DNA of 64,000 nucleotides from Deltaproteobacteria bacterium (GTDB lineage: Bacteria; Desulfobacterota; DSM-4660; Desulfatiglandales; Desulfatiglandaceae): positions 1 to 64,000 of the forward strand of contig JAFDIS010000005.1 of NCBI GenBank assembly GCA_019307945.1, written 5' to 3'. The notes beneath the pieces were generated by a model that was not told where the DNA came from, searched no databases, and saw only the letters and a program-made list of their open reading frames with translations. Positions 21,645-43,091 of this stretch are shown piece by piece. The translations under genes were made by a program, and so were the position numbers. Within the stretch, counting starts at the first letter, position 1. Each line of letters begins with the position of its first letter.

Positions 21645-21662
21645 GCTGTCTTGTCAAAACAA

Positions 21663-22289
21663 TCAATAATGGTCATAGACGTCTGTTTCTTCATGAACCG
21701 GATGTGGATAAGCAGGATCCGAGGCCAGAAAGACCGAGCAGTTACCCACGTATCTGCCACGGTCCAGGCCGCGGTGTATCACCTGTTCAACTGCAAGTCC
21801 GGCCCTTGTCAGCATAGACCGCCATTGTTCATCGGTATAAAAATGCTCGTCCCCGTAGCTCCGTTTTCTGCAGCGGTGGTTGGGAACGTCCACCAACACG
21901 CGGTGGGCGACCCGCCGTTGTTCAGCCAGCAAGAAGATAATTTCTTCGGGGGTGAAGTGTTCCAGCACCCCGCAGCTGTAGCAGATGGCGAATGATTTGT
22001 CGCTGAAGGGCAGGGCAGTGATATCACCGTTGAGAAGGCTAAGACCGGTGAAAAAGGCCGTTGCAGGCATAATGCGGCGCAGGAGACTCCTTGATAGATC
22101 CAGGGCCGCGACGCGATACCCCATGTCGGAGAGTAACATAGCGGTCCTGCCAGACCCGCACCCTGCCTCCAAGATCATTTCGCCGGGTCTCGCCAGCCGA
22201 CGGATAATCTTGATGGTCGGCATGTAAACCAGGGCACTGATATAAAGATTGAAATGGGCCCTGTCACTGAGAAAGGCTTCCCACCTCAT
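21663..22289 (-). CDS. class I SAM-dependent methyltransferase
   Basis: 208 residues. Motif I is MILEAGCGSGRTAMLL near residue 40, then VAALDLSRSLLRR (motif post-I) and GDITALPFSDKSFAICYSCG with LEHF (motifs II/III). This UbiE-like layout is typical of small-molecule and sugar methyltransferases. The start overlaps the end of the diverged cytidylyltransferase gene (22286-22289), so the two are translationally coupled and the methyl acceptor is probably a sugar or glycan intermediate made here. The C-terminal HPVHEETDVYDHY tail is acidic and unassigned. Confidence 0.88.
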   Translation of the reverse strand: MRWEAFLSDRAHFNLYISALVYMPTIKIIRRLARPGEMILEAGCGSGRTAMLLSDMGYRVAALDLSRSLLRRIMPATAFFTGLSLLNGDITALPFSDKSFAICYSCGVLEHFTPEEIIFLLAEQRRVAHRVLVDVPNHRCRKRSYGDEHFYTDEQWRSMLTRAGLAVEQVIHRGLDRGRYVGNCSVFLASDPAYPHPVHEETDVYDHY

Positions 22290-22999: not shown

Positions 23000-23008
23000 G
23001 TTCCTCCC

Positions 23009-25398: not shown

Positions 25399-25410
25399 TG
25401 GAGTCTCCTT

Positions 25411-27279: not shown

Positions 27280-27367
27280 GGTATGTCAACCATGCAATGT
27301 TCTGGTGCAGGGCCAGCGGGGTCGCTTTCTACCGCCACACCGGCTGCGGGTTTTTTCACTGTCGGTT

Positions 27368-29464
27368 TCAAGCCATCAGTATCCAGCCCGCCGCGTCGTC
27401 CCAAAGAATGACGGGTTGGGAAAGGCCGGCCTTTCGCAGAGAATGGAAGATATCCCGGGGCCAGTCGCCGGTGGTGGCGCATACCACCGCACAGTCGAAG
27501 GCCACCGTGGCGATTTCCTCGGGCTGGACAATGCGCAGGTCCGGGAACATGCGTCGTATCTTTTCGTAGAAGAAGCGGGCGTCGCTCACCGCGACAATTT
27601 CAATATCCATGGGGCGGGTCAGTTCAACCAAAGCGTGGGCCAAGAAATTCATTCCATAGAGAATAACCCTCAGGTTCGGCAAAGCCTTTTCCCGGGCACA
27701 TTCCTTTAGACGGGGCAGCACCTGCCGGGCTTGCTTGGCTTTTTCGATATACAGCTCAGAGAGACGAAAATCCTCCAGCTGGAAAAAATCGTCTACCCGG
27801 TAAAAGTCGTTGAGGCCGTTTTCCATCAACATCTTCGGTAACTCCGGGGAGGTTGAAAGGATCAGGTGCTTAAGGAGATTGTGGTGAAACGGCGTCAGAT
27901 GGGTTGCATGGTCTCCGACAGCGCCGTGTCTGAAGTGGGACGAAGTGCTGGGCAGGGTCGCGAGCTGCTCTTCCTTCATGGCCTCAAAGGAGGTAGCGTC
28001 GACAATGGAGCGGATGGTTTGGTCGTCGGCTTTGCAGCCGAGGAAATCGGCCAGCCTGGCCAATTCCTTTTCCTTTTGGGCCACTAAGTTCTCGTAGGAA
28101 ACGAAATGCACCGGGTATTCTTCGGAAAAACGAATCATGGACTCCATCTGTCGCAAAAAGAGGGAGGCGCCTATCCAGTAATGGGGAGGGAAGTCGAAGC
28201 CGTTGATCATAAAGATCATGGCCCCCTCCACTGAGAGATGGTTGAAAAATTCTTTGTTATTAGTGGGGTAACCCAGGGCGGCGTCCGGTTCGTTCAGAAA
28301 ATGGTAGTAGAGTGAGACCAAGGCATCACCGATGTTGCGGTAGAGAAAGATCAGCCGAGCTTTTTTGTTGCGGATCGTCCGCTGGATTGCTGGTGAGGCC
28401 AGAAAGTGCCAGCTGAAGAAGGTGCCCGGCGGGTGGTCGAGGTAGCGGGGATCCTCAAAGGCGGTACAGTCGCCATCATGGATCGGCTCGTGGGGAGTGA
28501 GGCCGGTCATCTTGGAGAGGATTTTTCGCATCATCCAGGTACCGCTTTTCATCATGCTGGAGAGCATGATCGGCCGTTCAGCGGTGAGTTTTTCTTCCGG
28601 AGGTGGCTGCTGGTCCATGCACGCGTAAAGAGGAGGTGCGGCCGCGAACCGGTAGCCCAGGGACTCGTAGGCATGGACGACCTCCTCCGGAACCAAGACG
28701 GCGAATGCCTTCTGTTTCCAATCCGGCCAGCGCTGATAGGCGGTTTTCTCGTCCACGTAACTCTCTTCCCCACGGTAGACCTGGTGGGCGAAAGCGTACA
28801 CCGTGTCCAGCAGATTCTCGGAAAAAGAGCAGCGACCCTTGGTAAGAAAGCAGACAAGGTCCTTGAGGGCCTGCCGATCGGTGAGCAAGTCCTCGATACG
28901 CACGAAATAGTCGACATGATCCAGGTCTACAAGGACGTTGTGCAGGAGCCACATGCCCTGGTAGGCTGCCCAGATCTCGACTTGTTCCTTGGTATAGGGT
29001 CTAAGGTCTAGGCATTTGAAAAGGTCGTGCCGAGCGTGTTGCCACTCATGCTCCAGGGCGCCGGACCAAGTGCCCGGCATGCGGCAATTGTTCACCCGGT
29101 GGCGGATGTAGAAGTCGAGCCAGGTGTAAGGATGGCGCACCAGGTTGGCGATGGGGACCCGATCGCCATATTTCTTCTGGATTGGGCCCATCTGACTGGC
29201 CCGGTATGCATGACATTCGCCAATGGCCTGGTAGTCGGTGCCGATGTCCTCGAGAAAGGCAGTCATTGTGAGAAGGTCAGGCCTAGTGTCGCGGCCGCGT
29301 CCGTCATCGAAGTACTTGAGGCGGGCCGGTTCGTAGCAGTTGATCACAAAGATCTCCGGATGAGCGTTAAGCGCCTTGGAAAGCCAGTGATCGCCTGCAT
29401 GTCCCCAGCCGGTGAGGTAGAAGACGTTGGTGTCGGCCTCGAAACGTGATGTGGAGACGGGCAT
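27368..29464 (-). CDS. tandem sulfotransferase-like protein with Rossmann-like tail
   Basis: 698 residues containing two sulfotransferase-type folds. The first (~15-270) starts YLTGWGHAGDHWLSKALNAH, a PAPS 5'-phosphate loop variant without the usual Lys/Thr. The second (~298-530) is nearer canonical: IMLSSMMKSGTWMMRKILSK (5'-phosphosulfate loop), FLYRNIGDALVSLYYHF (3'-phosphate motif) and FRHGAVGDH near 511. Residues ~598-690 (LRVILYGMNFLAHALVELT, IEIVAVSDARFFYEKI) are Rossmann-like, as in several neighbours. It probably sulfates a sugar of the local glycan; the first domain may be structural. Gaps of 88 bases downstream and 25 upstream. Confidence 0.8.
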   Translation of the reverse strand: MPVSTSRFEADTNVFYLTGWGHAGDHWLSKALNAHPEIFVINCYEPARLKYFDDGRGRDTRPDLLTMTAFLEDIGTDYQAIGECHAYRASQMGPIQKKYGDRVPIANLVRHPYTWLDFYIRHRVNNCRMPGTWSGALEHEWQHARHDLFKCLDLRPYTKEQVEIWAAYQGMWLLHNVLVDLDHVDYFVRIEDLLTDRQALKDLVCFLTKGRCSFSENLLDTVYAFAHQVYRGEESYVDEKTAYQRWPDWKQKAFAVLVPEEVVHAYESLGYRFAAAPPLYACMDQQPPPEEKLTAERPIMLSSMMKSGTWMMRKILSKMTGLTPHEPIHDGDCTAFEDPRYLDHPPGTFFSWHFLASPAIQRTIRNKKARLIFLYRNIGDALVSLYYHFLNEPDAALGYPTNNKEFFNHLSVEGAMIFMINGFDFPPHYWIGASLFLRQMESMIRFSEEYPVHFVSYENLVAQKEKELARLADFLGCKADDQTIRSIVDATSFEAMKEEQLATLPSTSSHFRHGAVGDHATHLTPFHHNLLKHLILSTSPELPKMLMENGLNDFYRVDDFFQLEDFRLSELYIEKAKQARQVLPRLKECAREKALPNLRVILYGMNFLAHALVELTRPMDIEIVAVSDARFFYEKIRRMFPDLRIVQPEEIATVAFDCAVVCATTGDWPRDIFHSLRKAGLSQPVILWDDAAGWILMA

Positions 29465-29489
29465 GGGGTTGATTTCCTTTCTTTCCAGT

Positions 29490-29973
29490 TCAGATGAAAT
29501 TCACATGCATGGGAGGCGGACCGGGGGCCTCCGGTAGTCGGGCCATCCCCTTCTTCAGATCCCAAAGGAATTCGTTGACTTTATGCTGCAGGCACAGCAG
29601 GCCACATCGCCTGCGGGCGTCGAAGCCGGTGGAGGCGATCTTGGCGATGGTTTTCCAATAGCGGTCGCTTCCCCAGCATGCCACAGGGCGCTACCAGTCC
29701 TGAACCCGACAATTGCAGCATGACCGGTGGCCCGTAGCAGCGGCTGTATTTACGGTTGCGACCGGAAAAGATGAGGTCATCGTGGTTGAGGTGGTCGCAT
29801 ACCCCGACAGCCACTGCCTCCTGGCCGAGATAGAGACGGACGGGTGTCCGCATTTCCTGCTCCGGGTAGAGGGCAATGACCATTTCTTCATACAGCCTCA
29901 GATTAAGGATCCCCCGGTAGGGGGCTGGAAGAGTTTCTGTCGGTATGTTCGTGTTGTTCAGATTAGTGCTCAT
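29490..29973 (-). pseudogene. chimeric remnant: E1-alpha N-terminus joined to radical SAM/SPASM C-terminus
   Basis: The first ~70 codons (from 29973) match the start of ThDP-dependent dehydrogenase E1-alpha subunits: ILNLRLYEEMVIALYPEQ, then VRLYLGQEAVAVGVCDHL and DDLIFS. The frame then jumps without a break into RNRKYSRCYGPPVMLQLSGS and GLVAPCGML, which belongs to the SPASM region of the radical SAM protein at 31308-32411. After CGML about 20 codons are missing and the match continues in another frame: RYWKTIAKIASTGFDARR, LCLQHKVNEFLWDL, ending PPPMHVNFI at 29490. So two genes were fused by deletion and then frameshifted. The 5' end still overlaps the upstream glycosyltransferase stop. Confidence 0.82.
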
Positions 29974-31250
29974 GAGGTTGGTTCATACGCTTCCCCCAGG
30001 ATGGGAATCATGGCATTCATGGAATGGGTCTGCCGGTACTCACGAACATTGTCTCTCAGCCCCTGGTAATCGGCGGCGGCGATCAGAGCCGGAATTTCTT
30101 CGAGCCGACGCAGGGAGTAGACCAGGCCAAGGCCGTGTTCGTTTACCAGCTTCCGAACTGTCGTGAATTCTTCATATACCAGAAGAGGCAGGCCTGCCTC
30201 GAAGTAGCTGCAGACCTTTGTCGGCATGGTGAATCTGAAATGTTCCTCTGGATATTGTGCTCTGGCCAGGTTATCGAAAAGGAGTCCGAAATGATAATTG
30301 GTCAGAATGTCCGGCAGTTGATGAAACGGCACCCCCGGTTTGAAACTAAAACAGGGATATCGTTTTTCCATCCTTTGGTAATGACGGTGTTCTTCCCAAT
30401 GCATGTCTCTGGCATTCTGATTTACGAGAATGTCGAGATGAAGTCCCGTATTCTCAGTGCTCGCAATCATCGGATCGAAAAGATGGTTGCCATGCCCGAG
30501 GGAGTCGGCGAGCCTCGGCGGGATGACTCCGCCGGCGAAGACCAGACGGTTTCGTGTTGAGCCGTTTGGCGTCCGATCTCGGAAGAGTTGCGGTAAAGGC
30601 AGACTCTGAACCGCATAATCGGGGGGTGCTTTTTCATATTTCTGTCGTAGCACCGCAATCGCCTCTGGAGGCATTTTATGAGTGAAGCCGTCTGCCTGCC
30701 GCAGGATCGCTTCTTCCATTGAGATATCAGGATGGTTTGGGTCATTGTGCAAGAACAGCATGGCATCGTTGCTGTCTATAATGGTGTACGTTCCGCTTTT
30801 TTCCTTGGCTGCCACGGCCAGGGCTCCGAGAATCCACGGTTGGATAAAGGCGTGGATGCAGGCGGGGCAGCTGTCTGCAAGGAGGGTCCATAACTCTTGG
30901 AAGTCCCATATCTCGTAAAATTGATCAAAAAATCTTTCCGGCTCGGTGTCTTCCCGGATGCAACAGCCAAGGAGGGTGATGAAATACTTGCCGGTCTCCC
31001 GCAGGATCACGGCGTTTCTTATGAGCCTGGATGAAGGATAATAGGAGACGAAGACGATGTGCCGCCTGCCAGCCACAGTGCTTTGATTCAGATGATCTGG
31101 TTTGTCTCGGTGGACGAGGGTCCCCCGGCCCCTTGGCATGGGCCCGGCCAGCGCAGCGTTGATCATTTCCCGCTGCATGGGTGTCCACTGTCCCGGAATT
31201 TCCGGACGAGACCTTTGAATTTTCGAGATTAAAGTCAAGTTGAAACTCAC
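29970..31250 (-). CDS. glycosyltransferase-like protein
   Basis: 426 residues, GT-B-like. Seen: RRHIVFVSYYPSSRLIRNAV near residue 60, TYTIIDSNDAMLFLHND, NRLVFAGGVIPPRLADS, and the donor-side FTMPTKVCSYFEAGLPLLVY followed by EFTTVRKLVNEHGLGLVY. The C-terminal part strongly resembles that of the protein at 23713-25398, so they are related members of one unusual glycosyltransferase group. Its stop overlaps the ATG of the chimeric remnant, so it was once coupled to the intact E1-alpha-like gene. 57 bases separate it from the radical SAM gene upstream. Substrate unknown. Confidence 0.75.
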   Translation of the reverse strand: MSFNLTLISKIQRSRPEIPGQWTPMQREMINAALAGPMPRGRGTLVHRDKPDHLNQSTVAGRRHIVFVSYYPSSRLIRNAVILRETGKYFITLLGCCIREDTEPERFFDQFYEIWDFQELWTLLADSCPACIHAFIQPWILGALAVAAKEKSGTYTIIDSNDAMLFLHNDPNHPDISMEEAILRQADGFTHKMPPEAIAVLRQKYEKAPPDYAVQSLPLPQLFRDRTPNGSTRNRLVFAGGVIPPRLADSLGHGNHLFDPMIASTENTGLHLDILVNQNARDMHWEEHRHYQRMEKRYPCFSFKPGVPFHQLPDILTNYHFGLLFDNLARAQYPEEHFRFTMPTKVCSYFEAGLPLLVYEEFTTVRKLVNEHGLGLVYSLRRLEEIPALIAAADYQGLRDNVREYRQTHSMNAMIPILGEAYEPTS

Positions 31251-31307
31251 GACCTCGTCTGGCAGATTTGGTATATGTTGGATACCAGAGGGGAGGTCGT
31301 AACATGA

Positions 31308-32411
31308 CTAGATAAAATTTACATGCATAGGTGTCGCACCAATTTGGGTAGAAAGCTTTAAGCGGTCGTTTTTCAAATCCCATAAGAACTCATTTACTTT
31401 ATGCTGAAGACATAATGATCCGCACATCCTACGAGCGTCAAAGTTTTCAGAAGCGATTGTGTTCATTACATGCCAATAGCGAGCACCTTCATATATTTGT
31501 TTGAATGACTTTTCAGCAATGTTACCTATATGAAATTCATTGTATCGCTCATTGAAAAGCATGCCGCAAGGCGCCACTAGCCCGGATCCGGACATTTGAA
31601 GGAGAAAAGGCGGACCGTAGCAACGGCTATAACGTCGCTTCCCGCCACTCATGATTTTGCTCCATTTTGCCTTCACAGAGTAGCTTGATGTCGATATGCT
31701 TTCCGCCTTTCTCAGTATATTGGTGAGGGAGAAATAGGCTTTATAGTCCACCCCCAAACTGCCGTTTTCATCATCGCTGCAGTGCTTGATTACGAGATAG
31801 TCTACGCCCAGGCGTTTCCCCAGACGGGCCAGAGGAATGACCTGGTCGGCATACCAAGGTAATAATACCATTTGCATGCCGATGGTTACAGGGAGGTTGC
31901 GCCTCGCCTTGATCTCTACACTAGAGCGGATGGTACGGCAGACTTTTTCGAAGGATGAAGGCGCACAGCCCATGATTCGTGCATAGCGATGAGGATCGGC
32001 ACCGGAAAAATTGAAACGAAGATATGTGAGCTTTGGGAGTATCTCCTCGAGAAGTTCGGTATCAAGGCGATAACCATTGGTCCCAAGCGCCATGTCCAGC
32101 CCATTGTCATGGCCCCTTAGAATCGCTGCTTTGAGATGCGGGCTCAAGGTACTCTCTCCGTCGCTCACGAAGCTAATGGCTTTTACACCAATTTCGGCTG
32201 CATCGTCTAGAAAGCGAAAAATGACGGCCTTTGTCAGTGGGTATTCTCTATTGGCCTGGAGACGACCGTAGCAATACACGCAGTGGTAGTTGCAGCGCCT
32301 GGTCAGAGCACAGTCGATGGTGATGGGGGCGATTCGTTCTCCCCGAAGCCAGGCTTCGACCCGCTCGCGATGCCATGCCAGCTTGTGTCCATCGAGAATG
32401 AGGGATTCCAA
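31308..32411 (-). CDS. radical SAM/SPASM protein
   Basis: 367 residues. Begins LILDGHKLAWHRERVEAWL, a head shared with the radical SAM protein at 33721-34824, then TRRCNYHCVYCYG (Cys 40, 44, 47 binding the SAM cluster), SFVSDGESTLSP and FNFSGADPHRYARI. The C-terminal SPASM-like region has extra cysteines (RCYGPPFLL, APCGML, RRMCGSLCLQHK) that probably bind auxiliary iron-sulfur clusters; the end is MHVNFI. The DNA here is visibly AT-richer than most of the window. SPASM enzymes modify peptides, proteins or sugars; the setting favours a glycan or glycan-linked target. No precursor peptide gene is evident. Confidence 0.88.
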   Translation of the reverse strand: MESLILDGHKLAWHRERVEAWLRGERIAPITIDCALTRRCNYHCVYCYGRLQANREYPLTKAVIFRFLDDAAEIGVKAISFVSDGESTLSPHLKAAILRGHDNGLDMALGTNGYRLDTELLEEILPKLTYLRFNFSGADPHRYARIMGCAPSSFEKVCRTIRSSVEIKARRNLPVTIGMQMVLLPWYADQVIPLARLGKRLGVDYLVIKHCSDDENGSLGVDYKAYFSLTNILRKAESISTSSYSVKAKWSKIMSGGKRRYSRCYGPPFLLQMSGSGLVAPCGMLFNERYNEFHIGNIAEKSFKQIYEGARYWHVMNTIASENFDARRMCGSLCLQHKVNEFLWDLKNDRLKLSTQIGATPMHVNFI

Positions 32412-32427
32412 CGTAAGAGCCTTTCGG

Positions 32428-32910
32428 TTAAACTCTGAGATAGCCGGGTCGTTGGCTGGTGATCCAGGCGGTCACCAGGTCAGGGAAGTGGACGTTTCCG
32501 GCATAGGGGTCGTACACTTTCATGCCGATAAGTTCCATGATTTTGATATCGTCGCGGCCACAGCAGTGGGAGGGGCCCAGGAACTGGAAGTAATTCTCGA
32601 CGCCTGTGGCGATGAATTTTACATTCAGATGCTGAAGTACGACATCGTTGCGAACCTGTTCCAGGGCCCGGAAGACCAGGAAGTTGACAATGGTGTAAAA
32701 AATAGGAATAAGGCCGCTCATGCTCATACCGGCTGCAATTCCGGTTGCCCCTTGCTCCATGATCCCCACGTTGATTACTCGATCGGGGAATTCGTCTCGT
32801 AAGCGGTCGATAGCGCCGAAGCCCATATCGCCGACCAGCAGATAATACCTTTCATCTCTACGAAAGTGTGGTATCAGAAGGTTGACAACGGTTTTGCGGT
32901 GGTCAGTCAT
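32428..32910 (-). CDS. transketolase C-subunit, pyrimidine-binding domain only
   Basis: 160 residues matching the ThDP pyrimidine-binding domain of split transketolases: YLLVGDMGFGAIDRLRDEFP, RVINVGIMEQGATGIAAGMS (the Glu of MEQ is the cofactor-activating residue) and FIATGVENYFQFLGPSH, ending GYLRV. A typical C-subunit is about 300 residues with a further C-terminal domain; here the stop comes directly after the Pyr domain, and the next gene starts 16 bases on. Start set at ATG 32910 (MTDHRKTVVN), overlapping the N-subunit gene by 8 bases; the longer frame to 32979 adds an unconvincing leader. Either a minimal working partner or a truncated one. Confidence 0.82.
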   Translation of the reverse strand: MTDHRKTVVNLLIPHFRRDERYYLLVGDMGFGAIDRLRDEFPDRVINVGIMEQGATGIAAGMSMSGLIPIFYTIVNFLVFRALEQVRNDVVLQHLNVKFIATGVENYFQFLGPSHCCGRDDIKIMELIGMKVYDPYAGNVHFPDLVTAWITSQRPGYLRV

Positions 32911-33718
32911 CTTCCAACTCTTCCTTGGAAGGAAGTCTAAAATGAAACTTGGGGACGTTTTCCATGCAGCGAACGCCATATCCCTTTACGGTTTCGGCGA
33001 TCACAACACCCGGTGGACCTTGTTGGCGCTCTTTAAGTTGCAGGAAACAATCCCTCAGAGCCAGGGGGTCATGACCATCGCAGGAGACGGGGTCCAGACC
33101 GAAACCTTCGAGTCGGCGCTCAAGATCGTCGGGGTTGCAATCCATCACGGCGGTGATAAAATCCATTGCCTGCAATCGGTTCCGGTCAACAATGACAATC
33201 AGTCGATGCAGGTTCTTCTTAACTGCGAACTGGAATGCCTCCCAAGTGGTGCCCTCTTGCATTTCCCCATCACCGACAAGGCAAAAGACGTGGTATGATT
33301 TGCCTTGGAGTTTCGCTCCGTAGGCAAGGCCTACAGCTATGGGGAGGCCATGTCCCAAGGAACCGCAGCCGGCCTCGATGCCGTATTCAGGCCGTCTATC
33401 GCTACAACCGGCAAGGGTGCTGCGGGGGGTGTAAAAGCCCTTCCATTCTTCCATGGGAATGACACCAAGATGCGCGAGGATGGCATATAGGCCATAGCAG
33501 CCGTGGCTCTTGGAAAAGATCAGGCGGTCACGATCTTTCCAGAGGGGGTCGTTTGGCTCATAGGTCATTGCCCCGGCGTAAAGTGCCACCAGGACATCCA
33601 CACAGGAGAGGGACGGTGCGATGTGCCCCGCACCGTTTTCCACAGCGACGGTCAGTACCTGCCGCCTTATATGCGCCGACATCTCCTCGAGTGCATTAGT
33701 GTATGGTGAGGATTTCAT
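32903..33718 (-). CDS. transketolase N-subunit (ThDP diphosphate-binding)
   Basis: 271 residues. Matches the first half of split transketolases: RRQVLTVAVENGAGHIAPSL, FSKSHGCYGLYAILAHLG, SLGHGLPIAVGLAYGAKLQG and the ThDP/Mg motif VGDGEMQEGTTWEAFQFAV with VIVDRNRLQAMD. Transketolases move two-carbon units between sugar phosphates and can make sedoheptulose 7-phosphate, the substrate of GmhA, whose homologue is in the same operon. Start at ATG 33718, just after the stop of the radical SAM gene; a longer frame to 33763 would only reread that gene's tail. Coupled to the shortened C-subunit by an 8-base overlap. Confidence 0.88.
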   Translation of the reverse strand: MKSSPYTNALEEMSAHIRRQVLTVAVENGAGHIAPSLSCVDVLVALYAGAMTYEPNDPLWKDRDRLIFSKSHGCYGLYAILAHLGVIPMEEWKGFYTPRSTLAGCSDRRPEYGIEAGCGSLGHGLPIAVGLAYGAKLQGKSYHVFCLVGDGEMQEGTTWEAFQFAVKKNLHRLIVIVDRNRLQAMDFITAVMDCNPDDLERRLEGFGLDPVSCDGHDPLALRDCFLQLKERQQGPPGVVIAETVKGYGVRCMENVPKFHFRLPSKEELEDD

Positions 33719-33720
33719 TT

Positions 33721-34824
33721 TCAAATGAAATTGGCGTGAGGATGGGGGTTTTCCAGCTCCCATAAGTATTCGTTTACAAGGTTCATTCGGCAGTTAAGGC
33801 GGCAATGGGAAATATCGAAGCCCTCCCGCATCATCCGGAATAGAGCTTCGCGACGTTTACCTTCCCAAATCTCGCGGAAGTCCTGCTCAAGGAGGTTCCC
33901 GAGAAAAAACCGTTGATCACCCAGGAAGGCACTGCAGGCATAAAGATCGTGACCGGCAGTGAGGTATGCCCAGAAGAAGGGAACGGAGCCGCATGAGCGG
34001 TATCGCTGGACCCCCCTTATATGGCTTTGGAAAGTATTTTTACGATAAATTACCTTAAACGAGCCATCGAAGCCTCGTAAGCTGGAGGTGATTTTTTGGG
34101 TCAGAGGAGTGTAATCCAGGTCCTTGTAACGTCGGATGCGGCTCAGATGATGATGTGAATAGGGCTTGAGCACCAGATAGTCCAGGCCGATCATGTCTCT
34201 GCATAAGCCGATTAGTCTTCCAATTTCGTCGACATTCTCGGGGAGGACCAACATTTGGGCCCCCAGGGTGCAAGAAATGGCGTTTTTCTCCCGGCAGCGG
34301 ACAGCGGATCTCAAGTTGTCTATCACCAAATCGAAGTCCCCCTTGGCCGTTCCATGAAGCTTGGCATAGGTTTCGGCGGTCCCGGCGTCTATGCTTACCT
34401 TGATCCATGATGCCAAGGGTAAAAGCTGTTCGGCAATGTCTTTTTTCAGCAGAACCCCGTTGGTGGTAAAGGCTATGTCGAGGCCGGCATCTCGGGCGGC
34501 CTCGGCAAGCGGGATGATTTCGTGGTAGAGAAGAGGCTCTCCTTCCCCCGCGAACATGATGCTCCTGACGCCGCGTAGGGCCATTTCTGGGAGAGCGTTT
34601 TTCATGACCGCCAGATCCAACCGCCGGGGGCGATACTCCATGTAGTCAAGGGCGCAGAAGGCACATCTGTGGTTGCAGGCGCCTGTCGGGGATATTTCGA
34701 GGTAGATCGGGTAAATGGTCTTGGCCTTTTCCCAGTCGCCCCGCGCCTTCAGCCAGTGCGTAACCCTTTCAGGGTGATAGATCAGCTTGTGGCCGTCTAT
34801 ACGGTACTCATCGTTCTCTGTCAT
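33721..34824 (-). CDS. radical SAM/SPASM protein
   Basis: 367 residues from ATG 34824 (MTENDEYRIDGHKLIYHPER); an upstream extension to 34926 is within the previous gene and not family-like. Radical SAM motif PTGACNHRCAFCALD (Cys 50, 54, 57), then IMFAGEGEPLLYHEI and FTTNGVLLKKD. A C-terminal SPASM-type cysteine set is seen in YRSCGSVPFFWAYL, LYACSAFLGDQ and HCRLNCRMNLVNEYLWEL; the protein ends HPHANFI. Head and tail are shared with the protein at 31308-32411, so these are paralogues of one family repeatedly found with surface-glycan genes. Overlaps the deoxyhypusine-synthase-like gene by 17 bases. Confidence 0.88.
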   Translation of the reverse strand: MTENDEYRIDGHKLIYHPERVTHWLKARGDWEKAKTIYPIYLEISPTGACNHRCAFCALDYMEYRPRRLDLAVMKNALPEMALRGVRSIMFAGEGEPLLYHEIIPLAEAARDAGLDIAFTTNGVLLKKDIAEQLLPLASWIKVSIDAGTAETYAKLHGTAKGDFDLVIDNLRSAVRCREKNAISCTLGAQMLVLPENVDEIGRLIGLCRDMIGLDYLVLKPYSHHHLSRIRRYKDLDYTPLTQKITSSLRGFDGSFKVIYRKNTFQSHIRGVQRYRSCGSVPFFWAYLTAGHDLYACSAFLGDQRFFLGNLLEQDFREIWEGKRREALFRMMREGFDISHCRLNCRMNLVNEYLWELENPHPHANFI

Positions 34825-35785
34825 AATCGTCCTCTTGAGTAAGGGCCGTCCAGAGCTGAGGAAATGTCTCTTTATGCCTGCCGCGCACGTAATGACTTTC
34901 GCCCCCCTGTGCAACAGTTCTGACAAGCATGGTCTTCCAAGGCCTAAAGTAGTAAGCAGGGTCAGTGGGGTCTGCTTCTTTTCTGTAGTCGTTTGGCAGG
35001 TGCACGAGGTCGCACACGAGTGTGGTGAACCGGGCTATCGAGGCATCGCGTCGTGCGGCAACATTGCGAACCATGGAAAGGGCTTTGAGGTACACTTCCG
35101 GTCCCATCACCGCACTGCCGAAGTTCATCACAACACCGTTTTCAACCCGCTCCAAGATGTTTGCCAGCCGAAGGAAATCCGTGTAACTGGCGGCACCGTA
35201 AGCCCCCCCATCGCAATTTGGAAGCTGGTGAACAATGTCTTGGCCGATGCCGACATGGACTGTCACGGGAATACCCAGGCGGTATCCTGCTGCCAGGACG
35301 CTGATCTGGCGGTTAGGAAACCGTTCATCATGAATTACTTTTCCTACGCTTTCCCCCAGTCCTTTCCCCTTGGCTGCGGCTTCACAAACGATGTCGTTGA
35401 TTCGACCCGTTTCCTTCCAGAATCCAAAACGCCCGTCCCGGATATATTCGCTCACACTTTCCGTGGTCCCGCCCACCAGCGCGAACTCGAAATCGTGAAT
35501 CACCCCTGCCCCGTTAACTGCAAAGCAATCTATAAGGTGTTTTTCCATCAAATCAATGATATAACGCTGCAATCCATCCCGGAGCAGGTGGGCGCCAGCC
35601 ATGAGGATAACAGAGGCACCGACCTTTCGTGCACGCCTGATATTACGAGCTACACGTCGAAATGCTTGATTCATTACAGGGCGTGGCTCGAGGTGGAGGA
35701 TACGGTCCAGATCCAGAAGATGATTCCTTTCTTGGAGGGAACAAAGGATCAGACGGGAACGGTCGAATGAGGTAGTGGGTATCAT
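34808..35785 (-). CDS. deoxyhypusine synthase-like protein
   Basis: 325 residues. Landmarks of the deoxyhypusine synthase fold in order: VILMAGAHLLRDGLQRYIID, IDCFAVNGAGVIHDFEFALV, ISVLAAGYRLGIPVTVHVGI, and NGVVMNFGSAVMGPEVYLKA. True deoxyhypusine synthases use NAD and spermidine to modify eIF-5A, which bacteria lack; bacterial homologues include homospermidine-synthase-type enzymes. The catalytic Lys region (WGK in the family) may correspond to PWKTML here, but that needs alignment. It is coupled by ATGA to the HldE-like gene and overlaps a radical SAM gene, so it probably acts on a sugar or amine in the same pathway. Confidence 0.62.
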   Translation of the reverse strand: MIPTTSFDRSRLILCSLQERNHLLDLDRILHLEPRPVMNQAFRRVARNIRRARKVGASVILMAGAHLLRDGLQRYIIDLMEKHLIDCFAVNGAGVIHDFEFALVGGTTESVSEYIRDGRFGFWKETGRINDIVCEAAAKGKGLGESVGKVIHDERFPNRQISVLAAGYRLGIPVTVHVGIGQDIVHQLPNCDGGAYGAASYTDFLRLANILERVENGVVMNFGSAVMGPEVYLKALSMVRNVAARRDASIARFTTLVCDLVHLPNDYRKEADPTDPAYYFRPWKTMLVRTVAQGGESHYVRGRHKETFPQLWTALTQEDDYDRER

Positions 35786-37296
35786 TTCGTTAGAGATACG
35801 ATGGTCTTCCTCATGCTTATTTTGTCAATGGGTTTTTTGTTTCCGAGGATCCCCACCGAAAGGCACCCTGCCACATTTCCCAGGAAGCCTATGATCTCAT
35901 TGGGTTCACGAAGGGCCGCTGCGAGGCTGGTCACTGCGAAGAAGGAATCCCCTGCGCCTACCCTGTCTACAACGGTTTGCGCGAATGCAGGGACAGCCAC
36001 GAAATTGCCCTCCCGGTTCAGCACCAGACAGCCCTTGCGGCCCCTGGTAACCACGAATTGATTTGCTCCCAGTGCATTGGCTAGATCGCTCATCATGGGT
36101 TGGATAGGTCCGTTTCGACGCCGCATCTCCAGGCGGATTTCGTGCTCGGCAATACACACGTAATCGGCTCGCGGGTAACGAGTTATCGTATGAAAGCCCC
36201 GGTTGCCTGAATTGGCCTGAGTGTTGACAGCCAGAAAGCCTTTCCCGTCACACACGGTCCTCACCATCGCGTCACTGACCGTCCCGTGCCCGTAGTCCGC
36301 CATGATTATAACGTCGTAATCCTCCAGGTAATCGCCGACCTTTGCGCAGAGCTCACGATCCAAGTCTCCGGGTAGACCTGAGTCATCCATTATGTACAAT
36401 TCAAAGAGTTTGTTGAAAGAATAGCCGTCAACGAAGCGCCTCTTTATTAGGGTAGGTGCACCCGGCTGATAGGCGAAATGCGGCTTCACATTGGGTAACA
36501 GTTGGGCACGTATGAACGTCTCATGAGAGTCGTTTTCTCCGAGTACGCTGACGATGTGAACCTCGTCAGCGAATCCTGCTACGTGGTTGGCCACGGCCAA
36601 GGCGCCTCCGGCAAAGAGGTCGCAGGAGTGGTAAAGGGCGGTTAGAGCGGGATCTTTATTGGATTTGCCCATGGGCTCGCAATACTGATACTCGTCCAAG
36701 ATGGTATCGCCGATGACCAGCACTCTGAGAGATGCCATCTTGTCTAGGACCTTCAAGATTGTATTCGAGCTGACCCTTTGTCGCATGAGTCTGAGGTATT
36801 CTTGATTTTCTGCAGGAAGATTTGATAAATAGCGGTTAATCAGGTTTGTGGAACTGAATACGATGTCGTCCGTGAATTCGAGTCGGGCCCCGATCTCTTT
36901 TACAATACGGGCCTCTTTGACGATTTTTCCGGTCATATCGGATGCAATATCGCGAAACTCAGACCCTTTTACGAAGATGTTCGGCCGGATGAGCCGGAGA
37001 GTGTTTTCCGCAGTCGGCCAGCGGTTAAGCGCCACGTAGTCCACGCTCTGGAGAGAAGCCACTGCCTCGGCACGGAGGGTTTCGGTAAAAGCGGGGCGGT
37101 GGGGACCCTTGTCAACGAAGCGGTCGGGGGTAACGGTGACCACGAGTACGTCACCCATCCGACGGGCTTGGTCGAAGTGCCTGATATGCCCGATATGAAG
37201 AAGATCAAAGACTCCGTGGCACTGAACCACGGTCCTTCCTTCAGCTTTCAGTTGTGCTACTTTCCGCGCGAGTTCTTCTAGATCAAGTATTTTCAT
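35782..37296 (-). CDS. HldE-like bifunctional protein, domains in reversed order
   Basis: 504 residues. The N-terminal domain (~20-160) is a heptose-1-phosphate nucleotidyltransferase: VVQCHGVFDLLHIGHIRHFD with the HIGH motif, VKGSEFRDI and IVFSSTNLINRYLS. The C-terminal domain (~185-500) is a PfkB/ribokinase-type kinase: RVLVIGDTILDEYQYCEP, LFAGGALAVANHVAGFAD, FVVTRGRKGCLVL and DRVGAGDSFFAVTSLA, whose GAGD holds the catalytic Asp. In E. coli HldE the kinase comes first, so this is the opposite order. It should phosphorylate a heptose 7-phosphate and make an NDP-heptose. Overlaps the gmhA-like gene by 14 bases. No gmhB phosphatase is seen nearby. Confidence 0.87.
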   Translation of the reverse strand: MKILDLEELARKVAQLKAEGRTVVQCHGVFDLLHIGHIRHFDQARRMGDVLVVTVTPDRFVDKGPHRPAFTETLRAEAVASLQSVDYVALNRWPTAENTLRLIRPNIFVKGSEFRDIASDMTGKIVKEARIVKEIGARLEFTDDIVFSSTNLINRYLSNLPAENQEYLRLMRQRVSSNTILKVLDKMASLRVLVIGDTILDEYQYCEPMGKSNKDPALTALYHSCDLFAGGALAVANHVAGFADEVHIVSVLGENDSHETFIRAQLLPNVKPHFAYQPGAPTLIKRRFVDGYSFNKLFELYIMDDSGLPGDLDRELCAKVGDYLEDYDVIIMADYGHGTVSDAMVRTVCDGKGFLAVNTQANSGNRGFHTITRYPRADYVCIAEHEIRLEMRRRNGPIQPMMSDLANALGANQFVVTRGRKGCLVLNREGNFVAVPAFAQTVVDRVGAGDSFFAVTSLAAALREPNEIIGFLGNVAGCLSVGILGNKKPIDKISMRKTIVSLTK

Positions 37297-37987
37297 CGCC
37301 CCACCCGGGAAGTTTCTCCGGACATTGCGGTTGATTTTTCAGGCTCAGCTTCAAGTAGGAGTAAATCAAGTGTCCCAGAATGTTAAAAATGTCCTCCACG
37401 GGGCCGTACTCCCCCACAGGGGTGGGGATATGGATACAGATATCTACTATTTTCTGCAAGGATCCCCCATCAAAGCCGCAGCACCCGATGGTGACGGCGC
37501 CGATACGTCCTGCATATCTCAGGGCCTTGAGTACATTGGGCGAATTTCCGCTTGCCGAAAGAGCCAGAACCACATCCTCAGGCGTTAGCAGTTCCTCTAA
37601 CTGCCTGACGAAAACATGATCGTAGCCCTCGTCATTGGCCAATGCCGTAACAACGGCCAAGTTGTCTGACAGGCTTACGACGCGGAAGGGGGGGGCACCT
37701 GGCGCACGCACGCCTACGCTCAAGTCATTGGCGAAATGTGTGGCTAACGCTGCACTTCCACCATTTCCGAAAACGTAGATAGTATTTCCTCTATTTCCTG
37801 CTGCGATAATGGTTTCAACCATCTTTTGGATCGCTTGGAGATCGAGTCGCAATAGCAAGTCACCGATACGCGAAAAATACCCCGCAGCGAAATCCGAAAT
37901 GGTCGCGGCATTCTGAAAGATGGCCTCTAGGCTGGTGGAAACGGAACCGTTTTTATCCAGAACCGTCTTCAAGTGTTTTAGGCTCAT
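37283..37987 (-). CDS. gmhA: phosphoheptose isomerase-like SIS protein
   Basis: 234 residues with a single SIS domain: TIYVFGNGGSAALATHFAND, then VSLSDNLAVVTALANDEGYD, VVLALSASGNSPNVLKALRY and a C-terminal EYGPVEDIFNILGHLIYSYL helix. These match GmhA, which converts sedoheptulose 7-phosphate to heptose 7-phosphate. Overlap with the HldE-like gene and presence of a transketolase pair in the same run support a dedicated heptose pathway. GAGGAGAAGG precedes the ATG. An 87-base gap separates it from the upstream glycosyltransferase gene. Confidence 0.87.
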   Translation of the reverse strand: MSLKHLKTVLDKNGSVSTSLEAIFQNAATISDFAAGYFSRIGDLLLRLDLQAIQKMVETIIAAGNRGNTIYVFGNGGSAALATHFANDLSVGVRAPGAPPFRVVSLSDNLAVVTALANDEGYDHVFVRQLEELLTPEDVVLALSASGNSPNVLKALRYAGRIGAVTIGCCGFDGGSLQKIVDICIHIPTPVGEYGPVEDIFNILGHLIYSYLKLSLKNQPQCPEKLPGWGDENT

Positions 37988-38074: not shown

Positions 38075-39025
38075 TTACAACGTTTTGTAAAAGGTGAGAA
38101 GGCGGTCCACGGTCGCCTTTTCCGTCCAAACGGTTTCCATGAAATATCGACTTTCCCGTCCCATCATGGTGCGTTTTTCGGGCTCGTTCAGGAGGTCCTT
38201 GAGGCCTTTCTCAAGATGCCGCTCATTCCGCGCAATGACCCAGGGAGAGTTTTCCCGACCCGTAAACTCCTTGATGTGGGAAAGATTCCAATCATCGAGG
38301 CCTGCGATGACGGGCTTTCCCTGGCTCAGGCCTTCAAGGGAGGAGACACCGAAGTAGCCCTGCATGTGGTCGAAGTGGATATCACAGCCCTGCTTGATCC
38401 GCAGGCATTCGGCGTGGGGCTTGTTTTCCACGATCACCGCCTCCAGTTCGGGGTGATTCTTGCGCAGGGAGGAGACCGCGGAAAGGAGGAGGTTCGTGTC
38501 CTTGATCTCCTTCCGCGTTGGGGACTGGCATACCCGGACCTTTCCGTCTCGGGGCGCGTCCGCAGGGAGGTAGCGCGGGTCGTTGACGGGCACGGGATTG
38601 GGCTGCCACCGCGCCTCCGGCAGGAGCTTGAGCAGATCGGGCGTGCTCACGAGGACCTTTCGCCTGAGCTTTCGGTACTTGTCCCTGTAGATTCCGGGGT
38701 TGGCCCTGAAATGGGGGTGGCCGTGGTGGTGATGGAGGATCGCCTTGCCAAGCACAAAGTCCTGGACCCGCAGCGGCCCGAGGGTGAGGTTTTCGTCCGC
38801 CAGGATGTGAAAGTGGAAGATGTCCGCCCCTGCCAGGGTGTAGCGCAGCTCATCGAAGCCTTCATCCGTGAGATCCGGCACATGGAGGTCTTTTTCGAAA
38901 TCAAAGTTGTAGCGCGTGGCGCAGGTCACCAGTCGGCAGCGGTGTTCCGTGTGCTGGTTCAGTGCCTTGGTGAAGGTGATGGCGACCCCTGCAGGGTCGT
39001 TTTCAGAGATCATCACGATGTTCAC
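38075..39025 (-). CDS. family 4-like glycosyltransferase
   Basis: 316 residues, GT-B. Seen: IVMISENDPAGVAITFTKAL at the N-terminus (acceptor-side loop), DIFHFHILADENL, AILHHHHGHPHFRANPG, VRVCQSPTRKEIKDTNLLLS and the donor-side YFGVSSLEGLSQGKPVIAGL, with the conserved Glu in SLEGL. Histidine-rich HHHHGHPHF is notable but probably incidental. It is the first gene of the long minus-strand run, and the only one directly downstream of the palindromic operator at 39156-39176. Probably works on the same glycan as the downstream genes. Confidence 0.85.
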   Translation of the reverse strand: MNIVMISENDPAGVAITFTKALNQHTEHRCRLVTCATRYNFDFEKDLHVPDLTDEGFDELRYTLAGADIFHFHILADENLTLGPLRVQDFVLGKAILHHHHGHPHFRANPGIYRDKYRKLRRKVLVSTPDLLKLLPEARWQPNPVPVNDPRYLPADAPRDGKVRVCQSPTRKEIKDTNLLLSAVSSLRKNHPELEAVIVENKPHAECLRIKQGCDIHFDHMQGYFGVSSLEGLSQGKPVIAGLDDWNLSHIKEFTGRENSPWVIARNERHLEKGLKDLLNEPEKRTMMGRESRYFMETVWTEKATVDRLLTFYKTL

Positions 39026-39147: not shown

Positions 39148-39155
39148 GGACTAAC

Positions 39156-39176
39156 TGTCCATTCAGTGAATGGTCG
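39156..39176. promoter_or_regulatory. palindromic operator, site 1
   Basis: TGTCCATTCA, G, then TGAATGGTCG. The left arm and the inner part of the right arm are identical to the perfect palindrome at 43069-43091; the outer right arm deviates. It lies 130 bases upstream of the glycosyltransferase start at 39025, at the head of the long glycan run. Confidence 0.7.
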
Positions 39177-39215
39177 GTTATATCATCGGCATCCCGGCGT
39201 CCGATCTTGACGTCT

Positions 39216-41105
39216 TTACAACCCGTAGGCCCGCAGCCGGTCCAGGCTTTCCAAAAACCCCCGCCCCCCCGCAAGGTGCCCCCGCCAGACCTCGGGGACC
39301 CAGGATCCCTGGTAGTCTGAAAAAAGCGGCATGACCGTCTTCATTTCGATGTCTCCTTCACCCACCTGTACCCCTTCTCCGTCCAGGCCGTAGGCGTCGG
39401 CGAAGTGGATATGCCGGATAAAGGGGCGCACGGCGCGGATAAAATCTGCGAGGTCGCGCTCCTTGGCATTGCAATACAGGGCTGCGTGGGACAGGTCGAA
39501 ACAGAGTCCGATCCCGGTTTCCTCGCAAAAGGCGCGGATTTCCCCGGGGTCCATGAAGTAGTTGCCCTTCCACTGTCCCCCGAAATACCAGGGGTAGGGC
39601 GGGAGGTTCTCCAAAAGCAGTTCCACTCCGTCCCTGCGGATCTCTTCGCAGGAGCGGCGAAGGGCCAACCGCAGGGGCTCTCGGTCCATCTTGATATTGA
39701 GGCTCATGGCGCCCGGGTGCGCGATCACCTTGGGCTTGCCGCGAAAATGAGGGGCGAGGGAACGGGCCACGTCAACCGCCTTTTCCACGAGGCGAACGGA
39801 ACGAAGGCGGACCGCCTCATCTCCGCTGCAAAGGTCCAACAACAGCTCTCCCATGTACTCGGGCGCGTGCACCACCAGTTCCTGGGGGTAACGGCCTTCG
39901 AGCCGCGGCACCTGATCCAGATCCCTTTCGGTCAAATGAAACTCGATCACCTTGGGGCCGTATGCCAGCATTTCGTCCATGTCCGAAAACCGGCAGATGA
40001 GGCCCCAACGGGACCGGAAGGAGTTGGAAAAATCAATTCGGGGGCCTTCTCCGAGGTCCTCTTCCAGGAAATAGTCATCCTTCTCCAAGTCCCGCCGGAC
40101 CACGCGGCCCACAAGGTCCCCCATCCGGCCCGGCGAAAGACCTTTGGCAGGGCCCTTGACCGCAATCATCCCTCTGTCGATCCGGGTCCCGGCGGCGATG
40201 GCGCAGGCGGCCACGAGACTCTTGCCGAAAAGCTCCCGGTTGAGGATCTCCCCCCGCAGGAGGAACCGCCTGGAGCGTGCCATGGCCTGGTCCGCCACGC
40301 GGATGTCCCGGATGAGCCTCCGCAACTCAAAGGGCTCCAGGCTGATCTTGTGGTCCGGCCCTTCCATCTTCTTGTCCAGCGTGAAGTGTTTTTCGATGAT
40401 GCACGCGCCCATGGAGGCGGCCACCAGGGGAATGGTGATGCCGATGTCATGCCCCGAATATCCCACGGGAACCCCGAATGTGCGGAGACGATCGATCATC
40501 CGGAGGTTGACTTCCCGCGGCCAGACCGGGTAGACGCTCCTGCAGTGAAGGAGGGCGAAGGGGACCCCCTTTCTCTTGAGAAGGTCCACGGCCTGTTCGA
40601 TCTCATGCCAGTAAGACATGCCCGTGGAGACGATCATCGGTCTTTGCTGTGCGGCGATGTATTCTAGGAGCGGCAGGTTGGTGAGATCCGCAGAGGCCAC
40701 TTTGAAGGCCTTGATTCCCATACGAAGGAGGAGGTCCACACTGGGGTTATCAAATGGTGTACACAGGAACTCCACCCCCCTGGCCAGGCAGAGGTTTCGC
40801 ATCTCCCAGAGGTCGTCTTCTGACAACTCCACCCTTTCGAGGACCGGGATCATGTATTGGAAATGTTGTTCGTACCGCGCCGTTTCCCGGAGCACGTCCT
40901 CCCGGTAGAGGCTTCGGAGGTCCCTTTTCTGGAATTTCACGGCATCCGCCCCGCAGTCTGCAGCAACGTTCACAAGTTCGCGTGCCAGGCCGGGGTCGCC
41001 GTTGTGGTTGATCCCGATCTCCGCAATGACGTATGTGGGCAGGTCCGGTCCGATGAGCCGGTCCCCGATGCGGAGTGGTGCGATGTGAGAATCGGAGGTT
41101 TTCAT
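39216..41105 (-). CDS. NeuB-type nonulosonate synthase fused to SAF and TIM-barrel domains
   Basis: 629 residues, nearly twice the usual NeuB length. Residues ~25-280 are NeuB: TYVIAEIGINHNGDPGLARE, DAVKFQKRD, FKVASADLTNLPLLEYIA, IVSTGMSYWHEIEQAV, VGYSGHDIGITIPLVAASMG and IIEKHFTLDK. Residues ~290-350 look like the SAF/antifreeze-like domain (SLVAACAIAAGTRIDRGMIA). Residues ~365-625 resemble a xylose-isomerase-like/AP endonuclease 2 barrel: ELVVHAPEYMGELLL, VIAHPGAMS, LLLENLPPYPWYF, GLCFDLSHAALYCN and RHIHFADAYG. The NeuB part condenses a sugar with phosphoenolpyruvate; the barrel may isomerise or epimerise the precursor. 18 bases downstream of the epimerase gene. Confidence 0.9.
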   Translation of the reverse strand: MKTSDSHIAPLRIGDRLIGPDLPTYVIAEIGINHNGDPGLARELVNVAADCGADAVKFQKRDLRSLYREDVLRETARYEQHFQYMIPVLERVELSEDDLWEMRNLCLARGVEFLCTPFDNPSVDLLLRMGIKAFKVASADLTNLPLLEYIAAQQRPMIVSTGMSYWHEIEQAVDLLKRKGVPFALLHCRSVYPVWPREVNLRMIDRLRTFGVPVGYSGHDIGITIPLVAASMGACIIEKHFTLDKKMEGPDHKISLEPFELRRLIRDIRVADQAMARSRRFLLRGEILNRELFGKSLVAACAIAAGTRIDRGMIAVKGPAKGLSPGRMGDLVGRVVRRDLEKDDYFLEEDLGEGPRIDFSNSFRSRWGLICRFSDMDEMLAYGPKVIEFHLTERDLDQVPRLEGRYPQELVVHAPEYMGELLLDLCSGDEAVRLRSVRLVEKAVDVARSLAPHFRGKPKVIAHPGAMSLNIKMDREPLRLALRRSCEEIRRDGVELLLENLPPYPWYFGGQWKGNYFMDPGEIRAFCEETGIGLCFDLSHAALYCNAKERDLADFIRAVRPFIRHIHFADAYGLDGEGVQVGEGDIEMKTVMPLFSDYQGSWVPEVWRGHLAGGRGFLESLDRLRAYGL

Positions 41106-41123
41106 GGGTATCTGGAGCCTCCC

Positions 41124-42155
41124 TCAGGCCTTCACGACCTGCCGGCGTCGGGCGGCGCCATGGGTGGGCACCGGAAGGGGCTGGGCCGGCTTTCCTGTTG
41201 CGATCCGCTCCCGCCAGGAATTCAGGAGGTCCGAGAGCGACTCCTCCAAAGACCACCGGGGTCTCCACCCCGTCTTTCTCCGGAATTTTTCCGTGTCCGC
41301 CACCAGCACCGGGATGTCCGACGGCCGCATCCGGGAAGGGTCCTGCTCGATGCGAATCACGCACCGGCTCATCCCGAGGAGCATCTCCAAGACCTTGGAG
41401 ATGCTGTGTGGCTTTCCGGAGCCGATGTTGTAGACTTCACCCGCCTCCCCCTGCTCAAGGGCCAGGACATAGGCTCTCACCACATCGCGGATGTCTGAAA
41501 AATCCCGTTTCGCTTCCAGGTTTCCCACCCGGATCACCGGGTCCCGGAGGCCTGCCTCGATTTCGGCGATTTGCCGTGCGAAATTGGAGGTCACGAAGAC
41601 ATCGCTGCGGCGAGGCCCGGTGTGGTTGAAGGCCCGTGTCCGAACCACGTGAAGCCCGTAGCTTCGGTGGTATTGATAGGCCATGGCGTCCTGCGTCACC
41701 TTGCTGACCGCATAGGGGCTCAGGGGCCTGAGGGGCGTGCTTTCTTTTACGGGCAGTTCGTGCGCCTCCACCATGCCGTATTCCTCGGAGCTGCCTGCCG
41801 TCAACAGGCGGGTTTCCTCAAGACGGAGGCTACGCATGGCTTCCAGGATATTCAACTGGGCCGTCACATTGTTGACCAGCGTCTCTCTAGGGGAGACGAA
41901 ACTCACCGCCACACTGCTCTGGGATGCGAGATGGTAGATCCGTTCAGGCCGCAGCTTGTGCAGGAGCCCGGCCACGGCGAAGGGGTCGCGCAGTTCGCAC
42001 TCGTGAAGTTGCAAGTCGTTCTCGAAAAAGGCGATATTTTCGCGGTTGCTCCGCCACCGCAGCACGCCGTGCACTTCGCTTTGTCCCGAATGGAGCAGGT
42101 ATTCGGCCAGGTGGCTTCCTGCCATGCCCGTGATTCCGGTGATCAATACCTTCAT
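41124..42155 (-). CDS. GDP-mannose 4,6-dehydratase/Rmd-like sugar epimerase-dehydratase
   Basis: 343 residues of the extended short-chain dehydrogenase family: NAD loop VLITGITGMAGSHLAEYLL, IYHLASQSSVAVSF, the Ser/Tyr/Lys active site in AGSSEEYG and SPYAVSKVTQDAMAYQYH, VVRTRAFNHTGPRR, RVGNLEAKRDFSDIRDVVRA and GEVYNIGSGKPHSI. This set fits Gmd and GDP-4-keto-6-deoxymannose reductases (Rmd). Substrate not fixed by sequence. Lies between the regulator (29-base gap) and the NeuB fusion (18-base gap), so it probably makes the precursor sugar. Confidence 0.87.
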   Translation of the reverse strand: MKVLITGITGMAGSHLAEYLLHSGQSEVHGVLRWRSNRENIAFFENDLQLHECELRDPFAVAGLLHKLRPERIYHLASQSSVAVSFVSPRETLVNNVTAQLNILEAMRSLRLEETRLLTAGSSEEYGMVEAHELPVKESTPLRPLSPYAVSKVTQDAMAYQYHRSYGLHVVRTRAFNHTGPRRSDVFVTSNFARQIAEIEAGLRDPVIRVGNLEAKRDFSDIRDVVRAYVLALEQGEAGEVYNIGSGKPHSISKVLEMLLGMSRCVIRIEQDPSRMRPSDIPVLVADTEKFRRKTGWRPRWSLEESLSDLLNSWRERIATGKPAQPLPVPTHGAARRRQVVKA

Positions 42156-42184
42156 GAGGTTTCCTTTCCCAAATTCCTCTCTCC

Positions 42185-42808
42185 TCAGAGGTCCGAAAGC
42201 TTCTTGACCCGGACATTCTCCCCCAAGAGTGCACGAATATCCTGGTGGATCTCCTCCTGCCTGGCAAAGGAGGTGATCACCACCGCGTCCACAGCCATGT
42301 CCCTGAGCCTTTGAGGGGCTTGTACTTCGAACCCGTTGAAAGGGCGTCCCTGCTTGGCGGGATCGCCGTCCACCACCCCCAGGACCCGGAGAGAAGTGTC
42401 CTTGAGTGCTGCGTAGACCACCTCGGCGGTTTCCGCCGCGCCGTAAAGGGCGATGGCATGAATGCCCTCATCCTCGAAATGCCCGAGTCTTTCGGCGATC
42501 TCCCGTTTCGTGGCCCCGTAAAGCTGAACCAGCTCCGCCGAATAGGAGAGCAGACGACTGATCAGGCGCTCCCGCCCGAGAGGGGTCAGGTGGTAGGCCT
42601 GTGACCGATTCGTCTCGCCTGTCACGGTGATCAGACCCTCCCGATGGAATTTCTTGATATAATTGTTGACCATGGAACTGCTCAGGTGGGTGATTCGGCC
42701 GATGCGGTGTTGGCTGTGGCGGGGCGAGTCATGTATGGCCAAAAGGACCGAGAGTTCCCGGAAGGGCTTGGTGGGCGTCAGGAAGTTGGCTTTGAATGGC
42801 TCGATCAT
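42185..42808 (-). CDS. winged-helix regulator with Rossmann-like sensor domain
   Basis: 207 residues. N-terminal winged helix (~15-85): RELSVLLAIHDSPRHSQHRI, ITHLSSSMVNNYIKKFHREG (recognition helix) and a wing ending AYHLTPLGRERL, MarR/ArsR-like. C-terminal ~115-200 is Rossmann-like: IHAIALYGAAETAEVVYAAL, LRVLGVVDGDPAKQG, VDAVVITSFARQEEI, resembling the domain at the tail of sugar C-methyltransferases and of neighbouring proteins here, so it may sense a nucleotide sugar. First gene of its operon; promoter TTGACT-N16-AACAAT at 42833-42860 contains an operator copy, which implies autoregulation. AAGGGG 8 bases before the ATG. Confidence 0.85.
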   Translation of the reverse strand: MIEPFKANFLTPTKPFRELSVLLAIHDSPRHSQHRIGRITHLSSSMVNNYIKKFHREGLITVTGETNRSQAYHLTPLGRERLISRLLSYSAELVQLYGATKREIAERLGHFEDEGIHAIALYGAAETAEVVYAALKDTSLRVLGVVDGDPAKQGRPFNGFEVQAPQRLRDMAVDAVVITSFARQEEIHQDIRALLGENVRVKKLSDL

Positions 42809-42832
42809 GGGATTGACCCCTTGAAGTCCGAG

Positions 42833-42860
42833 ATTGTTCGTTCACTGACTGGACAGTCAA
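42833..42860 (-). promoter_or_regulatory. promoter of the regulator-epimerase-NeuB operon
   Basis: Minus strand TTGACT (42855-42860), 16 bases, AACAAT (42833-42838). Start near 42826 leaves an 18-base leader with AAGGGG before the ATG at 42808. The operator copy fills the spacer. Confidence 0.55.
42834..42855. promoter_or_regulatory. palindromic operator, site 2
   Basis: On the minus strand TGTCCAGTCA, G, TGAACGAACAA: 19 of 22 positions equal to the perfect palindrome at 43069-43091. It lies exactly between the -35 and -10 of the regulator promoter, the position expected of a repressor site. It also contains an internal dyad TGACTG/CAGTCA (42846-42859). Confidence 0.7.
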
Positions 42861-43068
42861 GCAAATATCGTGCCTAAGTTTTTGTAGGCCTGAAATCAGG
42901 TAGTTGAAGTTCGGGTCTATTATCCCGGGAACCGGAGGCCGGAAAAAGATGTCAAAACCCCGGCATTTTTTGCCGTATAGGGTCCCGATTCTTGACGCCT
43001 CAGCACCCGTCAAAGAACCTCACCTCGGTTTCGTTCGGACCTGGGTCGAAAAGGAGGTGGTGTCCAGG

Positions 43069-43091
43069 TTGTCCATTCAGTGAATGGACAA
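43069..43091. promoter_or_regulatory. palindromic operator, site 3 (perfect)
   Basis: A 23-base perfect palindrome: arm TTGTCCATTCA, central G, and the exact reverse complement of the arm. It lies about 260 bases upstream of the regulator start and 102 bases past the DUF4301 stop. Confidence 0.75.

Follow-up and report, generated by a model that had tools for sequence, protein, structure and literature searches.

The window, i.e., the whole 64,000-nucleotide stretch of DNA analysed here, carries on its reverse strand a gene for a 207-residue regulator, followed by two putative target genes and a long run of glycan genes, with three related palindromes placed among them (Table 1). The glycan run encodes a SIS isomerase, an HldE-like kinase/nucleotidylyltransferase, a radical SAM protein, transketolase halves, a sulfotransferase, a cytidylyltransferase, a methyltransferase and a glycosyltransferase, the transketolase being split over two adjacent genes (32428-33763). 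The NeuB-type synthase scores below both the NeuB and the PseI equivalog cut-offs, and its fusion to a SAF domain and a TIM barrel recurs in many relatives. A full-length DUF4301 protein (43192-44781, E 7e-203) is encoded directly upstream of the regulator locus.

Table 1. Features of the regulator locus and of the adjoining glycan genes (positions in the window).
Feature	Position	Strand	Remarks
Operator O1 (predicted)	43069..43091	.	Perfect 23-bp palindrome; distal, 283 bp upstream of regulator start
Operator O2 (predicted)	42834..42856	.	Proximal, over putative regulator promoter; 48 bp upstream of start codon
Operator O3 (predicted)	39155..39177	.	Ahead of the 39.0-20.8 kb glycan operon
Putative regulator promoter, TTGACT-16-AACAAT	42833..42860	-	9/12 matches; overlapped by O2; not significant alone
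Regulator, 207 aa	42185..42808	-	Winged helix ~14-75, linker helix 76-113, Rossmann-like domain 117-205
NDP-sugar 4,6-dehydratase/epimerase (GDP_Man_Dehyd family)	41124..42155	-	First putative target gene
NeuB-type synthase, SAF domain and xylose-isomerase-like TIM barrel fusion	39216..41105	-	Second putative target
Glycosyltransferase-like gene	38075..39025	-	First gene of the O3 operon
Rest of glycan gene run	20811..37987	-	Co-transcription suggested by spacing

The perfect copy, O1 (TTGTCCATTCA-G-TGAATGGACAA), was indeed, as first described, a 23-base palindrome, and it is the sole odd-centred palindrome with 11/11 arm pairs in the 64 kb, against a simulated mean of 0.017. The two variant copies, O3 (CTGTCCATTCAGTGAATGGTCGG) and O2 (TTGTTCGTTCACTGACTGGACAG), differ from the 21-bp core by two and three mismatches, respectively. 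The original prediction had correctly placed a third copy ahead of the 39.0-20.8 kb gene run, but its description of the 42834 copy as a 19-of-22 match lying exactly between the -35 and -10 elements needs amending: its agreement with the perfect copy is 18 of 22 positions, centre included, and it runs over the final base of TTGACT (42860-42855) and the greater part of AACAAT (42838-42833). It should be noted that the promoter prediction over O2 is weak by itself, one being found where 1.2 were expected in shuffled sequences. O1 lies between the 3' end of the DUF4301 gene and the regulator, and thus there is no divergent gene that it could control; the DUF4301 gene itself was rejected as a target, since the site stands at the 3' end of that gene and not at its promoter. 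When the whole genome (4.16 Mb, 185 contigs) was searched by pattern rather than by matrix, only the three window copies were found within three mismatches of the 21-bp core, and the reversed control pattern gave no match at the same tolerance. Copies scattered at random, which would have spoken against a dedicated operator, were therefore not what the genome held: all three are at the regulator locus, and the relaxed consensus with one mismatch added a single, unrelated place.

The regulator combines two domains, in agreement with the winged-helix and Rossmann-like protein originally described downstream of two of the copies, as judged from Pfam matches and structure prediction. Its winged helix, with the recognition helix LSSSMVNNYIK, scored above the Pfam gathering thresholds of HTH_24 (34.9 bits, cut-off 21.9), MarR_2 (29.7 bits, cut-off 27) and MarR (25.7 bits, cut-off 24.6), so that by domain content the protein fits the MarR family in the broad winged-helix sense. 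The fold predicted from a 55-sequence alignment (pLDDT 92) comprises the winged helix, a 38-residue linker helix and the Rossmann-like domain, the wing being followed, in this predicted monomer, by that single helix. The C-terminal domain falls just under the Methyltransf_14 cut-off and far under that of NeuD; it is nevertheless related by sequence to the NeuD/PglD N-terminus and to Methyltransf_14 (E 4e-5 and 6e-5), and has weak homology to UDP-quinovosamine dehydrogenase as well. In NeuD/PglD and Methyltransf_14 these are enzyme domains, whereas the regulator carries its domain joined to a winged helix. Among known regulators, the EPS-associated MarR-type proteins of TIGR04176 (MarR_EPS) have a related winged helix and their genes also lie in polysaccharide clusters, and 52 of the 55 members of the regulator family match this model at E <= 0.01. 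However, the regulator itself reaches 19 bits for a cut-off of 88, and the model covers about 105 residues, without a Rossmann-like domain; no operator for TIGR04176 was found in those parts of the open-access papers that our search covered. Rex repressors offer the other likeness, with about 210 residues, an N-terminal winged helix, a C-terminal Rossmann domain and palindromic operators, and DNA-binding Rex proteins were indeed the top PDB fold matches of the predicted structure (E 1.5e-7). Identity to Rex is nevertheless about 15%, the full-chain TM-score is about 0.33 and the domain arrangement differs; the regulator also has its own operator and local glycan targets, and neither PF06971 nor PF02629 matched it in the family scan.

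Conservation of the site was assessed with a scoring matrix derived solely from the three window sites and then applied to related loci. Orthologues of the regulator, with 44-62% identity, occur in many Desulfobacterota and in one Candidatus Anammoxibacter. Each of the 23 loci with a recognition helix reading SSS[M/Q] or SST[M] (SSSMVNNY and close variants) had a site no more than 200 bp upstream of the regulator gene, three loci that are second records of the same genomes (L050, L059 and L064, for L006, L008 and L007) being counted once each. For each of these 23 loci, no more than 0.6% of background stretches scored as high as its best site, and the Mann-Whitney test over all 30 loci gave p = 6e-20. 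The matrix scan found no clear site upstream in the seven relatives with an LSGAMVNQY-type (SGAMVNQY) helix. In line with the proposed link between palindrome and regulator, the site thus tracks both the regulator and its recognition helix. Overall divergence alone fails to explain this pattern, since three relatives at the same 40% identity part according to their helix: L074 (SSSQINNY) keeps the site, while L068 and L069 (SGAM) are without it. When 18 loci were aligned on the proximal site, information reached 1.31 bits per column inside it, against 0.24 and 0.23 in the flanks; it therefore does not reflect general sequence conservation. Across the genomes of 24 relatives, 13 of the 14 exact matches to the relaxed consensus lay, by their coordinates, at the regulator locus, the only one elsewhere being in G473:C402, and the reversed control of this consensus gave none in any of the 24. 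No exact match occurred in the eight of these genomes that have no close orthologue; with the stricter core and three mismatches, two genomes of that kind (G005 and G034) each gave one isolated match elsewhere in the genome.

The genes next to the site are conserved as well. A NeuB-type synthase gene, often with the dehydratase, comes after the regulator in nearly all loci, and a homologue of the 38075-39025 glycosyltransferase comes next in many; in the exceptions (L051, L056 and L061, L056 being judged partly from translations) the neighbours of the regulator are still glycan genes. Counterparts of O3 were found between the NeuB-type and glycosyltransferase genes in G058, L049, L055, L063, L066 and L067, and no O3-like site was seen ahead of the glycosyltransferase in L050, L052, L053, L058, L064 and L065. 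Counting the window, 7 of 24 loci had a second site within 330 bp upstream of the regulator, whereas only 2 of the 1058 background stretches did. The spacings of the paired sites (110-269 bp) fit no common helical phase, so that looping from O1 to O2, which was also considered, is not supported.

Taken as comparative evidence, these results lead us to propose, with a probability of about 0.86, that the 207-residue regulator has the palindrome as its operator and would act as a local autogenous repressor of the surface-glycan cluster. The adjacent regulator very probably docks on the palindrome, because this sequence precedes the regulator gene in every relative with the matching DNA-binding helix. 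From a mechanistic point of view, a dimer of the regulator would use the recognition helix LSSSMVNNY to bind the site of 23-25 bp; bound to O2, with O1, it would govern its own promoter along with the genes that follow, those of the dehydratase and the NeuB-type synthase, and bound to O3 it would control the 39.0-20.8 kb glycan operon. A small molecule produced by the pathway, perhaps a nucleotide sugar, would then probably bind the Rossmann-like domain and relieve or strengthen DNA binding. The original prediction of an autoregulated repressor of both operons accordingly stands in part on conservation, which supports autogenous and second-operon control, and in part on the position of the sites over promoters, from which repression is deduced.

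The ligand of the regulator is likely to be a pathway metabolite, and a nucleotide sugar is plausible, being favoured by the weak homology of the Rossmann-like domain to its relatives; the likeness to Rex makes NAD(H) the main alternative. A variant of the proposed explanation, not exclusive of it, would indeed keep operator and regulator as stated and let the domain sense NAD(H) redox as in Rex, or bind no ligand at all. This we regard as possible but doubtful: the closest folds are those of Rex, and by sequence, too, the domain finds its best PDB match in Rex (E 0.006), but GAAETAE, of which the G and TAE are conserved across orthologues, stands in place of the GxGxxG loop of Rex, the Rex model PRK05472 gives 17.6 bits for a cut-off of 217, and the other best relatives of the domain are nucleotide-sugar enzymes (NeuD, UDP-quinovosamine dehydrogenase and a sugar C-methyltransferase).

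As for the sign of control, the regulator most probably acts as a repressor rather than an activator, given that its sites are placed over promoters or beside them. The same protein and sites could serve activation throughout, or activation at O1 and O3 with repression at O2, which we consider unlikely. Activation would suit the distance of O1 (283 bp upstream of the start) and the minority of loci (L057, L059, L060, L062 and L065) whose only site is more distal, at -145 to -179, as well as the weakness of recognisable promoters near the sites in most loci, which is usual for activator-dependent promoters. Most loci, however, have a site 39-60 bp upstream of the start codon, and 17 loci besides the window have one, from -39 to -78, at the position equivalent to O2. 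In L055, L066 and L067, which show a good promoter, the site overlaps the -10 element or lies directly against it, which is a repressing position.

It is far less probable that the site belongs to another factor, such as a paralogous regulator or Rex, with the 207-residue protein a mere passenger. The genome does encode such a paralogue (G000:C133, 33% identity), and Rex sites likewise begin with TTGT. However, the site follows the recognition-helix class of the regulator, most genomes that have a paralogue and no orthologue of the regulator are also without the site, and the paralogues have a different operator. These sister winged-helix-Rossmann regulators share the two-domain architecture, with about 22-33% identity to the regulator, and carry the helix LSLGLVN[TS]F. 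As with the 207-residue regulator, a palindrome stands upstream of each one's own gene, but it reads GTTCAA-N3-TTGAAC instead of the 23-bp palindrome: with at most two mismatches it was found in 21 of 25 sister loci, at a density of 3.87 per kb upstream of sister genes against 0.055 per kb elsewhere, often as two tandem copies about 23 bp apart, and it was also noted at L015-L033. In the sister locus of the same genome (L047), this operator lies near 9835 and the regulator at 9932-10474, ahead of a NusG-type gene and polysaccharide genes.

Finally, a transcription terminator hairpin or a mobile repeat can be rejected as an explanation of the palindrome on strand, position and conservation: the perfect copy does score as a terminator-like stem on the plus strand, but both flanking genes are on the minus strand, where no T-run follows, such stems are about as numerous in shuffled sequences, and in more than 20 genomes the copies occur at a single locus only, at regulator promoters.

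The sister loci, taken together with the proposed autogenous operator of the 207-residue regulator, suggest that local glycan regulators form a family whose subfamilies each have an operator of their own. We would further advance, tentatively and at somewhat less than even odds, that this is a new family of Desulfobacterota and their neighbours, in which a winged helix is joined to a nucleotide-sugar-binding Rossmann-like sensor, each member having an autogenous palindrome (TGTCCATTCA-N-TGAATGGACA or GTTCAA-N3-TTGAAC, according to the subfamily), so that each surface-polysaccharide cluster would be switched by the pool of its own activated sugar. Autogenous palindromic operators are already familiar from winged-helix repressors, and to our knowledge the switching of surface-glycan clusters in sulfate-reducing lineages has been little studied. 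The titles and abstracts of the open-access literature searched hold no description of this regulator-operator pair, of its Rossmann-like sensor or of the link to a NeuB-type cluster, so that the switch is apparently undescribed; the operator letters, used as a literature query, returned what appear to be chance primer matches in unrelated papers. The present results yield a regulator, its exact predicted operators and two putative target operons, together with a recognition-helix code that separates subfamilies. This offers new perspectives for annotating such clusters across many genomes, and one small protein with three short stretches of DNA would suffice for a direct test of nucleotide-sugar feedback on the expression of polysaccharide genes.

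Two further observations concern the relatives. The seven regulators with the LSGAMVNQY helix (L068-L072, L075 and L076) also adjoin NeuB-type genes; no clear operator of either type was found upstream of them, and theirs probably differs from both. Downstream of sister regulators, recurrent near-perfect palindromes of the type ATAAAATCNCTGCGNGATTTTAT were seen (near 2589 and 2800 in L020, and near 2596 and 2873 in L032), which are possibly terminators or a repeat family.
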